A stretch of DNA of 64,000 nt from Burkholderiaceae bacterium (GTDB lineage Bacteria > Pseudomonadota > Gammaproteobacteria > Burkholderiales > Burkholderiaceae_B), in the NCBI GenBank assembly GCA_030728985.1, contig JANQYI010000008.1, forward strand, positions 1 to 64,000. Reading direction: 5' to 3'. Positions 27,295-31,183 of the stretch are shown here, one piece after another. The notes beneath the pieces were generated by a model that worked only from the letters and a program-made list of their open reading frames with translations, made no database searches and was not told the DNA's origin. Within the stretch, counting starts at the first letter, position 1. Each line of letters opens with the position of its first letter. A program made the position numbers and the translations under genes.

Positions 27295-28056
27295 CTAGCG
27301 CCTCAACACGACTTCCTTAATCACCTGATGCGCACGCGCACAGAGTGCTGCACGCGCCGGTGCGGGTTCGCCATCCGGCACCCAGATTGGGGCCAGAAAC
27401 GCCACTTCAATCCGGACACCTGTGCCACCCAAGACTTTCCATAAGTTTTGCAACAGATTTTGATCGCCCACAAAGGCCGCGAAATCACTACGCTTGTCGT
27501 GGTGGAAAAATAACAAGGCCACGGGCTGTATCGGAACGTTTGCGCGCCGAGCAGGCTCAAAAAGATTGGCGTAAAAGGGCAACAAATCGAAACCCTGAGA
27601 CGTTGTGCCCTCAGGAAATAAACCCACCACCTGACCAAGCTCAAACTTATCCTGCATCGCGCGCGCGACTTTTTGCACGGCATGACGAGAAGCGCGTTCG
27701 ATAAAAATCGTATCCGCTCCGGCCACCAACCAACCCAACAAGGGCCAGCGACGGATTTCGCTCTTTGCAATAAATACAGCGGCGCGCGCATGGTTGATCG
27801 CGAAAATATCAAGCCAGGACACGTGATTGATTACCCAAAGCGCCGGTCCTTCTCGCAGAGGCTCACCTGAGTACGACACTCGCACACCACACAACGAGAG
27901 CAAGACACCAGACCAATCGCGCTTGAGCGCTAATCGACCTTTGTGCCCCACCAGCGGAAAAACCAGCACGAGCGTCAGCAAACCACATAACACCCAAGTC
28001 AATGCCAACAAGGCTCTTAAAAGGAAACGCAATGCATTCAACGCGATCGCTCCCAA
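27295..28056 (-). CDS. plsC: 1-acyl-sn-glycerol-3-phosphate acyltransferase
   Basis: PlsC-type acyltransferase converting lysophosphatidic acid to phosphatidic acid at the inner membrane. The 253-residue protein has N-terminal hydrophobic helices, the catalytic HX4D motif NHVSWLD (His78, Asp83) and the substrate-binding motif FPEGTTSQG. The only reasonable start is a TTG at 28056 that lies inside the pyrC' gene (19-bp overlap). It closes the ruvX-pyrB-pyrC'-plsC run, in the order known from Bordetella-like genomes. Confidence 0.9.
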   Translation of the reverse strand: MGAIALNALRFLLRALLALTWVLCGLLTLVLVFPLVGHKGRLALKRDWSGVLLSLCGVRVSYSGEPLREGPALWVINHVSWLDIFAINHARAAVFIAKSEIRRWPLLGWLVAGADTIFIERASRHAVQKVARAMQDKFELGQVVGLFPEGTTSQGFDLLPFYANLFEPARRANVPIQPVALLFFHHDKRSDFAAFVGDQNLLQNLWKVLGGTGVRIEVAFLAPIWVPDGEPAPARAALCARAHQVIKEVVLRR

Positions 28057-29273
28057 ACAAGATCACCGCTCAGTACCGTTGCCACCACGCGCCCAGGTAA
28101 CTCACGTCCTAAAAAGGGCGTGCATTGACTGGCACTGACAATATTTTCACGACACACTAACCAATAGTGCTCTGGATCTACGACACACACATCCGCAGGT
28201 GCGCCTACGGCGAGGTGACCCGGGAAAGCAGTCCATCCGGCACTTTGACCCAATACCTGACCCGGCGCCTGTGTGACGAGTCTGACCGCGTCTCGCAAGG
28301 GCACACGTGCTTCTTGTGCCCACTTTAGCGTCAGGGAGAGCAGCAACTCCAAACCCATCGCGCCCGGCACCGCATCAGCAAAGCTCAGATTTTTGTCCAA
28401 GTCCGTCAGTGGCGTGTGATCCGAACACACTGCATCAATCGTGCCATCCAGCAGTCCGAGTCGAATCGCATCGCGATCACGCTGACCACGCAAGGGTGGG
28501 TCAAGCCGAAAATGACGATCGTAATAGCCGATATCGATATCGGTCAGATGCACCTGATTGGCCGCCACATCACAGGTGATAGGCAGCCCTTCTTTTTTAG
28601 CTGCACGCACCATATTGATCGCCTCGGCACTCGATAAACGACAAAGATGCAGGCGCACCTCAGTGCGGCGTTGTAACGACAACAAGGTCTGCAACGCAAT
28701 CGTCTCAGCCTCGACAGGAATCGCGGCTAAACCTAGGCGTGACGCATATGCACCGTTGGCGACGACACCACCCCGCGACAACCAGGCGTCTTGAGGTCGC
28801 AACCACACCGCCAGGTCAAACGATTTTGCATATTGCATCGCACGCAAAAGCACCGCCGTATCTTGCACAGGCACATTGCCTTGTGAAAACCCCACACAGC
28901 CCGCTTGGGAAAGCCTCACCATTTCGGTCAAGGCTTGCCCTTTCAACTCGACCGTCAGCGCACCCAGGGGATAAACCTTGGCCTGTGGCGCGTGCGTAGG
29001 ACTCAAAGGTGTCTCCGGTGGCTGCACGAGACTGGTCACCCCACCCGCCAAGGCGGCACTCGAGGCGTCGCCCGACTGCCCCACACGGGCGGACAGATCC
29101 ACTAAGCCGGGCATCACAAGCATGCTAGAGGCATCAAGGACTCTGTCAGCGACGAAGCCTTCCGGCACTGCCCCCACGGAAACAATCATGCCTTCGGCGA
29201 TACAAACATCCGCAAACCTGTCAACACCGTTGGCAGGGTCGATCACGTGGCCGTGTTGAATATGAAGCCTCAT
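28038..29273 (-). CDS. pyrX: Dihydroorotase-like non-catalytic subunit (PyrC'/PyrX)
   Basis: A 411-residue dihydroorotase homologue. In active enzymes the barrel begins with a metal-binding HxH (DLHVH); here the same place reads MPGLVDLSARVGQSG, with Ser and Arg instead of His at about residues 61-63. The later metal His pair is also lost (AANQ where TPHH is expected), whereas SDHTPL is retained. In Pseudomonas such PyrC' proteins are inactive scaffolds for aspartate carbamoyltransferase. The ATG overlaps the pyrB stop (ATGA), matching that role. Unusually, the partner pyrB here also lacks its active site. Confidence 0.9.
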   Translation of the reverse strand: MRLHIQHGHVIDPANGVDRFADVCIAEGMIVSVGAVPEGFVADRVLDASSMLVMPGLVDLSARVGQSGDASSAALAGGVTSLVQPPETPLSPTHAPQAKVYPLGALTVELKGQALTEMVRLSQAGCVGFSQGNVPVQDTAVLLRAMQYAKSFDLAVWLRPQDAWLSRGGVVANGAYASRLGLAAIPVEAETIALQTLLSLQRRTEVRLHLCRLSSAEAINMVRAAKKEGLPITCDVAANQVHLTDIDIGYYDRHFRLDPPLRGQRDRDAIRLGLLDGTIDAVCSDHTPLTDLDKNLSFADAVPGAMGLELLLSLTLKWAQEARVPLRDAVRLVTQAPGQVLGQSAGWTAFPGHLAVGAPADVCVVDPEHYWLVCRENIVSASQCTPFLGRELPGRVVATVLSGDLVWERSR

Positions 29274-30169
29274 GGCGAAACTCCCGCAACGAGACTCATC
29301 ACCGCCATGCGCACCGCGATCCATGCCGTCTCGCTGACGATACGTTGAGCTTCTATTCCGAGAAGCAAGCAGTCGGGCTTCGCGTACGAAAGTTTTTCCT
29401 CGGTCAGTCCATAGGATTTGACATACTCTTGAACCGAAGGGATGTACGAATGCTGCGTCTCGTCAGGCCCCTGATCCAGCATGATGACAACATCAGCGTT
29501 GCGTAGCCCCTGCGCCAACTCCGTATAGGCACGCACACCGAGCTGCGCAAGCCCCTCAGGTAACAACGTCAAGGGCGCGACCACGCGGACTTCGGCGACA
29601 CACAAGGTCGTCAGCGCATGAATGCAGGAACGCGCGTGACGCGAATGTGATACTGCTCCCACCAACACCACAGTGAGCGGCGCAAAGTCTTTTTTGATGC
29701 GGTAAATCGTGAACATATCCATCAAGGCGCGCGTTGGATCGGCATGACTGCCGTCCCCTGCATTGATGATATGCACATGCGGTCCAACATGTTGTGCGAT
29801 TAAATACGGCGCGCCGCTGGCTTGGGTGCGCAACACGACAATATCCACATCAATAGCCGCATCAAGATCCGCCAAAAAAGGTTTCGAGGGACTGGGTAAT
29901 GTTTGAATGCCGAGCCAGTCTGCGGACAAACTCTTTGCCGCACGCTCAAATCCGCGCATGACGGCGGGCGCCTGATCCGCGATGTCTTGATCCACCAGGC
30001 TCACGACTTTTTTGCCTTGCAGGAGCGGTGTTTTTTTTATCTCACCTTCTGTTGCGGTGAGAAACAGCTCCGTCGTATCAAGAATGCGCGTCAGGATCAT
30101 CCGCGACACCCCTTCGGTCGTAAGCAGATGTGTCAGCGCACCGCGTGAGTTTAGTTGGGGGTTGCGCAT
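29270..30169 (-). CDS. pyrB: Aspartate carbamoyltransferase homologue lacking catalytic residues
   Basis: A 299-residue protein, plainly PyrB by descent: MRNPQLNSRG start, SGAPYLIAQHVGPHVHIINAGDG, HSRHARSCIHALTTL and AVRMAVMSLVAG are all typical. However, the carbamoyl-phosphate loop FENSTRTRTTFE is replaced around residues 59-75 by an unrelated stretch (DQDIADQAPAV...); the 80s loop with the catalytic Ser and Lys is shortened; HPTQ reads ADPTR; RLQNER reads LDQGPDE; and HPGP is absent. The frame is open throughout and the 4-bp overlap with pyrC' is kept, so it may be a maintained pseudoenzyme. Carbamoylation of aspartate is not expected from this protein. Confidence 0.85.
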   Translation of the reverse strand: MRNPQLNSRGALTHLLTTEGVSRMILTRILDTTELFLTATEGEIKKTPLLQGKKVVSLVDQDIADQAPAVMRGFERAAKSLSADWLGIQTLPSPSKPFLADLDAAIDVDIVVLRTQASGAPYLIAQHVGPHVHIINAGDGSHADPTRALMDMFTIYRIKKDFAPLTVVLVGAVSHSRHARSCIHALTTLCVAEVRVVAPLTLLPEGLAQLGVRAYTELAQGLRNADVVIMLDQGPDETQHSYIPSVQEYVKSYGLTEEKLSYAKPDCLLLGIEAQRIVSETAWIAVRMAVMSLVAGVSP

Positions 30170-30192: not shown

Positions 30193-30585
30193 TTAAGTCA
30201 GCGAATCAAAATAGCGCTGCAAAATGATCGCCGCGGCGATCGCATCGTCAGGTTCATTCCCAGTGATTTTTTGTGCTTCAACGCTCGAGCCGCGCTCATC
30301 AACCAACACCACAGGCAAACCAAACCGCCCTTCGAGTTGACGCGCGAAGCGACGACAATGCTGACTGGCATATTGTTCGCCACCATCCGTCGCCAGCGCC
30401 AATCCCACAACCAGTCTTTCAGGTTGCCAGCGCTTGAGCAAAGCCTCGATTCGTGCAAACCGCCCATCGCGCGTCGCTTCTAAAATGATGTCCAACGGAC
30501 GGGCTTGTTTGAGCAAGGTATTGCCCATCGCGACGCCACATTTTTTTTCGCCGTAGTCAAAAGCGAGCAAGGTTTCTTCAGGCAT
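30193..30585 (-). CDS. ruvX: YqgF/RuvX family putative Holliday-junction resolvase, rRNA-processing
   Basis: A 130-residue RNase-H-fold protein of the YqgF family, implicated in 16S rRNA 5' maturation. The first acidic motif LLAFDYGEKKCGVAMGN and the RLVVGLAL strand are clear. VVLVDERGSSVEA and NEPDDAIAAAIILQRYFD give the remaining acidic residues. It overlaps algH by 8 bp. In several Burkholderiales a pyrR gene separates ruvX from pyrB; only 23 bp separate them here, so pyrR is absent. Confidence 0.94.
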   Translation of the reverse strand: MPEETLLAFDYGEKKCGVAMGNTLLKQARPLDIILEATRDGRFARIEALLKRWQPERLVVGLALATDGGEQYASQHCRRFARQLEGRFGLPVVLVDERGSSVEAQKITGNEPDDAIAAAIILQRYFDSLT

Positions 30586-31183
30586 GCCCTGCCGCGCCCG
30601 TCAGCATGATGGGATCAATGCCAAGCAGCTTAAGCGCTGCGGGATAGCGATCCTTGGGTGGCGTATCAAAAATAATATTTTCCTGCGCCGCCACACTCAG
30701 CCAGGCATTTTGGGCCAATTCATTTTCGAGTTGGCCTGCGCCCCATCCTGCATAGCCTAGCGTGACCAACATATGCTCAGGGCCTTGACCTTGGGCGACC
30801 GCTTCCAACACATCGCGCGAAGTCGTGAGCGCCATGCGTCCGAACTTGATGCTTGAACTGTAATCACCTGCGGGCGAATGCAGGACAAAACCGCGATCGG
30901 TCTGCACCGGACCCCCGAAAAAGACCGCAGGCAGGTGAGCCGGATGTTGATCAGCACGAAGTCCTGGGGCGATTTCGAGCTTAAGGTCGATTTTTTCAAG
31001 TAAGCCCGCGACACTCAAATCCGTGGGCCGATTAATCACCAGACCTAAGGCGCCTTTGGGACTGTGCTCGCACAAATATATGACTGTGCCCGCCAAATCA
31101 CCCGACACCATGCCCGGCATCGCCATCAAAAATTGATTCGACAGGTCGGTCACTGTCTCGCCAGCGCGTTGCGATGCGTCCAT
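30578..31183 (-). CDS. algH: YqgE/AlgH family protein
   Basis: A 201-residue DUF179 protein. Family features are FLMAMPGMVSGDLAGTVIYLCEHSPKGALGLVINRP at the start (only a portion of the usual motif quoted), VFFGGPVQTDRGFVLH in the middle and LVTLGYAGWGAGQLENELAQNAWL near the end. It affects alginate and virulence regulation in Pseudomonas, but the molecular role is unclear. It stands immediately downstream of the rubredoxin gene (9 bp) and upstream of ruvX, the standard gene order. Confidence 0.94.
   Translation of the reverse strand: MDASQRAGETVTDLSNQFLMAMPGMVSGDLAGTVIYLCEHSPKGALGLVINRPTDLSVAGLLEKIDLKLEIAPGLRADQHPAHLPAVFFGGPVQTDRGFVLHSPAGDYSSSIKFGRMALTTSRDVLEAVAQGQGPEHMLVTLGYAGWGAGQLENELAQNAWLSVAAQENIIFDTPPKDRYPAALKLLGIDPIMLTGAAGHA

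Follow-up and report, generated by a model that had tools for sequence, protein, structure and literature searches.

Inactive dihydroorotases held in complex with an active aspartate carbamoyltransferase (ATCase) are known from several systems. The class A2 ATCase of Pseudomonas is a dodecamer of PyrB with the pseudo-dihydroorotase PyrC′; as described in PMC7053772, the P. aeruginosa PyrB is monomeric and inactive without PyrC′, becomes catalytic once PyrC′ is bound, and enters a complex that melts about 30 degrees above its parts, while deletion of its amino-terminal extension, earlier proposed to be a nucleotide site, altered neither activity, inhibition nor assembly. That source also describes the class A1 ATCase-dihydroorotase of Aquifex aeolicus (PDB 3d6n, 4bjh), both subunits of which are active, and fungal CAD-like proteins, in which a pseudo-dihydroorotase domain is kept as a catalytically dead part next to an active ATCase of the same pathway. 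For the wider family, PMC4581275 gives the defining motifs as SxRT, HPxQ and HxLP, the last taking the form HPGP in class A2, with RxQxER in addition for ATCases, and records that ureidoglycine transcarbamylase had been annotated in databases as a pseudo-ATCase. Here we describe a pyrB-pyrC′ pair, homologous to that of Pseudomonas, in a 64,000-nucleotide stretch of a Burkholderiaceae genome (contig JANQYI010000008.1, positions 1 to 64,000; hereafter the window), whose PyrB is, judged from its sequence, a chain of the class A2 ATCase type from which the catalytic motifs have gone. Unlike the Pseudomonas, Aquifex and fungal assemblies, in which the ATCase is active, both halves of the complex encoded in the window should be dead.

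In the set of normal class A2 PyrB loci that we extracted, all 22 display the signatures S.RT, KGE of the 80s loop, HP.Q, R.Q.ER and H.[LG]P, whereas in-protein scans found none of these in place in the window PyrB or in any of the 44 degenerate proteins of the family sample (see below). The single H.[LG]P string of the window PyrB, HVGP from residue 127, stands at another place than the motif. In the alignment, FFENSTRTRTTF of normal PyrB is replaced by VDQDIADQAPAVMRGF, HPTQ by DPTR and RLQNER by DQGPDE; HPGPMNRGVEI is mostly deleted, and STRTR and the 80s loop are likewise replaced or deleted. A six-frame motif scan gave hits in seven of 43 degenerate loci, none of which the in-protein scans placed in PyrB. 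Profile searches with Pfam and NCBIfam, which were used to check the names pyrB, pyrC′ and that of the second ATCase, recognize the protein in part: OTCace_N still matches the window PyrB (40.6 bits; cut-off 29.9), OTCace falls below its cut-off (13.6 against 29.4 bits), and the protein lies under the cut-off of all seven NCBIfam models listed. By homology and predicted fold it belongs to the transcarbamylase family, and its neighbor pyrC′, for a presumably inactive dihydroorotase, gives the gene arrangement of class A2; the lost motifs argue that it would not catalyze the ATCase reaction. Its 299-aa frame has no internal stop. A sequence-only reading of this stretch had reported the altered or missing motifs, the uninterrupted frame and the 4-bp ATGA overlap with pyrC′, all of which are borne out. 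Two further species of the window genus (G015 and G029) carry the same degenerate form at 66-68% identity, and several of the 44 genomes with degenerate forms are single-contig assemblies.

That reading had also raised the matter of a second complete pyrB, and a second complete ATCase, of another lineage, is indeed encoded by the window genome (an assembly of 44 contigs, 86.7% complete). The genome has three proteins with OTCace_N, namely ArgF (contig C15), the window PyrB and a 419-aa protein (P0003, contig C28). P0003 scores 738.6 bits against PRK11891 (NF008853; cut-off 560) and retains STRTR, HPSQ, RIQKER and HPLP intact, and is by score and motifs a member of this long type of ATCase (~430 aa, HPLP). 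PRK11891 is likely the catalytic replacement for the dead class A2 PyrB. Some Burkholderia similarly have a short ATCase with HPGP and a long one with HPLP, both displaying typical motifs as described in PMC4581275, where it is left open whether one of the two is catabolic; in the window genome, in contrast, the short one is dead. As a separate observation, the first ~66 residues of P0003 give a weak match to HTH_3 that is under the cut-off (E 0.0095); a fusion of an ATCase with a domain resembling DNA-binding ones would be interesting.

The phyletic distribution ties the degenerate pyrB to PRK11891. Within the window genus, PRK11891 (85-100% identity to P0003) occurs in six of 32 genomes, and it is these six whose pyrB is short or divergent; that of the remaining 26 is 55-58% identical to the window gene. 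For the family as a whole we sampled 250 genomes and counted as carriers those with a PRK11891 match of E 1e-100 or better, which gave 160 (158 above the model cut-off, two below). Degenerate pyrB genes are found in 44 of these, spread over four genera (six genomes in g1, 28 in g4, eight in g60 and two in g34); a pyrB with all motifs is found in four (G144, G148, G167 and G185), and 112 have no class A2 profile match better than 6.8e-24. Among the 90 non-carriers of this sample no degenerate pyrB was found: 82 have a full-length pyrB (E 4e-131 or better), four a fragmented or frameshifted copy and four none. Motifs were read one by one in 22 normal loci, while a six-frame scan of 129 retrieved normal loci left three that each deviate in a single motif (L028, L085 and L220); for most of the 82 there was no individual reading. 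At the level of the order, PRK11891 occurs in 13 of 250 sampled genomes, seven of them outside the family, and since six of these seven retain a high-scoring class A2 pyrB, PRK11891 permits the degeneration of pyrB without forcing it. A scan of genome contigs with a profile of the degenerate form, the patterns of which also match normal copies, gave no locus that is degenerate by motif scan among the 80 matches listed, which include loci from Advenella and uncultured Alcaligenaceae and which supplied the alignment for the structure model given below.

The partner gene shares the fate of pyrB. The metal-site segment reads PGLVDLSARV in the window PyrC′ against PGFIDIHVHL in the Aquifex dihydroorotase, with HxH gone; as HxH is also missing from PyrC′ proteins beside a normal PyrB (L070 and L076), the loss of the metal site in PyrC′ is older than the loss in PyrB. 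A pyrC′ gene accompanies pyrB in all 44 degenerate loci, reduced in G014 and as fragments in G255. Conversely, it was not found in any of the 62 genomes without class A2 pyrB that were tested (of 112 such carriers), in a search with no positive control within it; a separate search with P0002 recovered pyrC′ in 54 of 61 relatives. On the minus strand of the window the gene order is yqgE, ruvX, pyrB, pyrC′ and a plsC-like gene (Table 1), where yqgE, ruvX and plsC-like are names that we assume from homology. Of 30 genomes lacking both genes, 26 have plsC at most ~0.4 kb away from ruvX, and no pyrB remnants were seen by eye in the three-frame translations of 12 such ruvX-plsC gaps. Because pyrC′ is absent from all 62 and plsC lies near ruvX in most, clean deletion of both genes is possible, and this joint loss speaks against retention of the pair through mere non-removability or a need of plsC.

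Purifying selection acts on the dead pair in the groups that share the loss. Under the GY+F3X4 codon model, the ratio of nonsynonymous to synonymous rates (omega) of the degenerate pyrB is 0.148 in g4 (26 species), 0.134 in g60 (seven) and 0.190 in g1 (five), against 0.016 (six in g1) and 0.036 (16 loci) for normal pyrB. The corresponding values for pyrC′ are 0.100, 0.129 and 0.134 beside degenerate pyrB and 0.048 and 0.088 (14 loci) beside normal pyrB; those for the neighboring ruvX and plsC are 0.033-0.080 and 0.045-0.107. The degenerate sets leave out L197, L198, L206 and L066, and the normal set L218, L207, L217 and three loci from outside the family. An MG model without kappa gives 0.184 for the g4 pyrB. 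With omega held at 1, the log-likelihood drops by 965 units in g4 (-13748 against -12783), by 218 in g60 (-4547 against -4329) and by 156 in g1 (-3907 against -3751). For the trio of the window, G015 and G029, which have their loss in common, omega is 0.22 over 268 codons and 0.24 over all codons. Moreover, all 26 g4 copies are free of stops, compared with a mean of 3.8 and a maximum of 11 out of 26 in 200 runs in which sequences evolved neutrally along the g4 tree; the copies had been extracted as open frames, and the profile search shows no internal stop in the g4 rows. Both genes persist, free of internal stops, in each of the 28 g4 species sampled, although a contig edge truncates two. The open frame and the omega of the trio differ from the stops, frameshifts and omega near 1 of a pseudogene. 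As a homologue kept by selection with its catalytic residues gone, the window PyrB agrees in these respects with a pseudoenzyme, for which a non-catalytic function is presumed. The sequence-only reading had offered two views, a recently inactivated gene and a pseudoenzyme recruited for another task. The first is not supported, given a loss shared across a trio that has since diverged to the identities given above at such low omega, and the degenerate state of all 28 g4 species; the second is supported as to retention, given the second ATCase and the purifying selection, with the new task itself a conjecture.

This selection is distributed unevenly over PyrB. In g4, the ratio of the proportions of nonsynonymous and synonymous differences (pN/pS) is 0.09 for residues 1-30, 0.58-0.68 in windows of 31-105, 0.21-0.46 in windows of 106-255 and 0.56-0.58 at the C-terminal end. 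In six normal g1 copies, by contrast, constraint is greatest across the active-site region, 46-135 (0.01-0.03). Constraint is hence inverted between the two forms, the active site being loosest in the degenerate pyrB and tightest in the normal one. Sites invariant in normal PyrB tell a similar story: the share kept in the degenerate proteins is 0.79 for 1-33 and 161-230, 0.54-0.56 for 116-160 and 231-270, 0.22-0.24 for 34-115 and 0.23 for 271-317. Altogether, each of the five degenerate groups retains a common set of 34 residues, and 55 are lost in nearly all groups (L206 and L218 were left out of the PyrB alignment, and L206 therefore out of the site counts). The survivors include, from the region of the old site, S119-G120 and R181 in normal numbering, the last of which we take to be the aspartate-binding R167 of E. 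coli. In the window PyrB itself, preservation is best over residues 1-30 and in the central part, and poorest in the active-site region ~45-110. Of the PyrB-PyrC′ pair, for which the sequence-only reading had called for a structure prediction, PyrB was modelled as a single chain: the AlphaFold2 model (mean pLDDT 71.6, a per-residue confidence, and pTM 0.68, a predicted fold score), made with an alignment of 36 normal orthologues, has as its top Foldseek match the Aquifex class A1 ATCase chain 3d6n_B (TM 0.65, E 6e-14), which phmmer also matches at 7e-20. Among solved structures, PyrB and PyrC′ of the window both match the Aquifex complex best. We accordingly predict that the window PyrB retains the ATCase fold, a result partly built in because the alignment was of normal orthologues.

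The loss of the active site appears to have followed that of pyrR. Of the 22 normal loci, 18 have this gene in the interval from ruvX to pyrB; the 44 degenerate loci, two of them beginning at a contig edge, all lack it there. In the window the ruvX-pyrB gap, where most normal relatives have pyrR, is 23 bp, and PyrR was not found elsewhere in the 86.7% complete draft by a search run with no positive control. G144 (L207), with PRK11891 in the genome, all pyrB motifs, no pyrR and a pyrC′ of just 391 aa, has the look of a transition state. In a species-proxy tree of the flanking genes yqgE, ruvX and plsC, G144 and the g60 species, which are degenerate, group together (support 0.985) and jointly with g4 (0.999), and g34 comes next (0.998). 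If an intact pyrB was not regained, the active site would have been lost separately in g34, g60, g4 and g1, that is, at least four times; G014 may be a fifth independent loss.

We consider it probable that the pair is a retained double pseudoenzyme, in which PRK11891 took over synthesis and the PyrB-PyrC′ assembly kept a non-catalytic role. Under this proposal, the PRK11891 enzyme would have assumed pyrimidine synthesis, pyrR would have been lost and the class A2 active site would then have been free to drift, with selection preserving what folding and docking require (PyrC′, the central domain and the N-terminal arm) but letting the active site go. In its simplest working, the PyrB arm and central domain would bind PyrC′ and the resulting particle another molecule, the likeliest form being a dead PyrB-PyrC′ hetero-oligomer that scaffolds or regulates some other protein; both genes would be deleted wherever this role is not needed. 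More speculatively, the dead ATCase-dihydroorotase complex might have been taken into service as a non-catalytic particle on several parallel occasions, with residues 1-30, the central domain and PyrC′ as the selected module and perhaps a nucleotide sensor or docking platform as the function; we regard this as possible, if doubtful. The notion of a nucleotide sensor arises because the PyrB arm, by our own mapping, includes the amino-terminal extension of the Pseudomonas type, once proposed as a nucleotide site.

Several observations weigh against retention for a non-catalytic role. The pair is dispensable in the family, as the 112 carriers without class A2 PyrB indicate. The active-site and C-terminal regions of the g4 pyrB are near relaxed (0.56-0.68), and NG86 estimates of dN/dS, from pairs with dS of 0.1-0.8, are higher than those of the codon model (g4 pyrB 0.34, pyrC′ 0.23; g60 pyrB 0.28, pyrC′ 0.40). 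The mean pLDDT of the model is just 71.6 and the model was built on normal orthologues. In G014 (L066:6698-7678), PyrC′ lacks ~80 residues in frame (around window residues 87-165), the rest aligning well, and in G255 (L206) both genes are fragmented, the sole clearly broken pair of the 44. The ATGA arrangement is not universal, the 4-bp pyrB-pyrC′ overlap occurring in 39 of the 44 degenerate loci. Finally, the pyrC′ tree, the weaker of the two trees, puts G144 outside all degenerate loci with an inner-node support of 0.25 and allows two losses, one there and one in g1, against four by the flanking genes.

These same features can be read in other ways. Operon polarity, which we think unlikely, would have ruvX, pyrB, pyrC′ and plsC, which overlap or nearly touch, translated as a chain in which any stop or frameshift within pyrB shuts off plsC, and the frames kept to pass ribosomes on to plsC, not for the proteins. 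The spacing suits it: every one of the 44 degenerate loci has a pyrC′-plsC overlap (of 4, 16 or 19 bp), with ruvX-pyrB gaps of ~20 bp or less in most, and the frequent pyrB-pyrC′ overlap; however, keeping a frame would not need the strong local amino-acid constraint on residues 1-30 in g4, and the proximity of plsC to ruvX in most pair-less genomes shows that clean deletion was open. Slow decay, which we rate lower still, would make the pair useless since the arrival of PRK11891 and bound for deletion, its frames and omega reflecting past constraint and the avoidance of toxic misfolding. While the many carriers without class A2 PyrB, large in-frame deletions that vary between species, the broken pair of G255 and the prior loss of pyrR would fit such decay, both genes lack internal stops in all sampled g4 species, the stop-free pyrB copies of g4 far exceed the neutral expectation, omega is far under 1 in the groups sharing the loss, and the same regions are spared in separate groups. 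A changed transcarbamylase with another substrate, along the lines of ureidoglycine transcarbamylase, is very improbable: relabelled members of the family exist (PMC4581275) and S119-G120 and R181 are kept throughout, but no motif is in place in any of the 44 proteins, and the region drifts fast with no new conserved motif. An assembly artefact or sequencing error, which the draft state of the window genome might suggest, is ruled out, as is a compensating frameshift, since two congeners have the same form and 44 genomes of four genera have degenerate ones.

That pseudo-dihydroorotases prop up ATCases is known; a pair whose ATCase has died as well, and on which selection still acts in many species, would constitute a natural experiment on the non-catalytic roles of such complexes. 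Among the titles and abstract openings listed by searches of the open-licence literature, none concerned a degenerate pyrB in these bacteria. Further, PRK11891 is the sole potentially active one of the two ATCase types that we searched for, other types not having been searched for, in 156 of the 250 family genomes (44 plus 112), down to genomes of 0.8 Mb. The long type must therefore serve synthesis there, if these cells make pyrimidines, which bears on the question, raised in PMC4581275, of whether one Burkholderia ATCase is catabolic. Annotation by position would label the dead gene pyrB, and metabolic models should use the PRK11891 gene instead.

Table 1. Coordinates of the pyrB-pyrC′ locus in the window and of the second ATCase
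Feature	Position	Strand	Remarks
Pseudo-PyrB (class A2 ATCase chain by sequence; catalytic motifs gone)	29270..30169	minus	299 aa
pyrC′ (pseudo-dihydroorotase, partner gene of pyrB)	28038..29273	minus	4-bp overlap with pyrB
ATGA stop/start overlap (pyrB TGA, pyrC′ ATG)	29270..29273	minus	
ruvX	30193..30585	minus	upstream of pyrB
plsC-like acyltransferase gene	27295..28056	minus	downstream; overlaps end of pyrC′ by 19 bp
yqgE	30578..31183	minus	flanking gene
Second ATCase, PRK11891 (P0003)	contig C28, L002:901-2160	minus	419 aa

A few loci and records in the samples merit separate mention. Two of the PRK11891 carriers with a full-motif pyrB (G148 and G167; L210 and L211) have neither pyrR nor pyrC′ found adjoining it, though PyrB of Pseudomonas depends on PyrC′. 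In G021 (L028/L085), a 65% complete genome of the window genus in which PRK11891 was not found, the class A2 pyrB has an in-frame stop and an altered STRTR; the L085 record, the pyrB of which equals that of G021, is titled Bordetella parapertussis. Lastly, three PLSDB entries of 3.7-4.1 Mb (NZ_CP077849.1, NZ_CP064203.1 and NZ_CP104448.1), listed as Acinetobacter plasmids, look like chromosomes.
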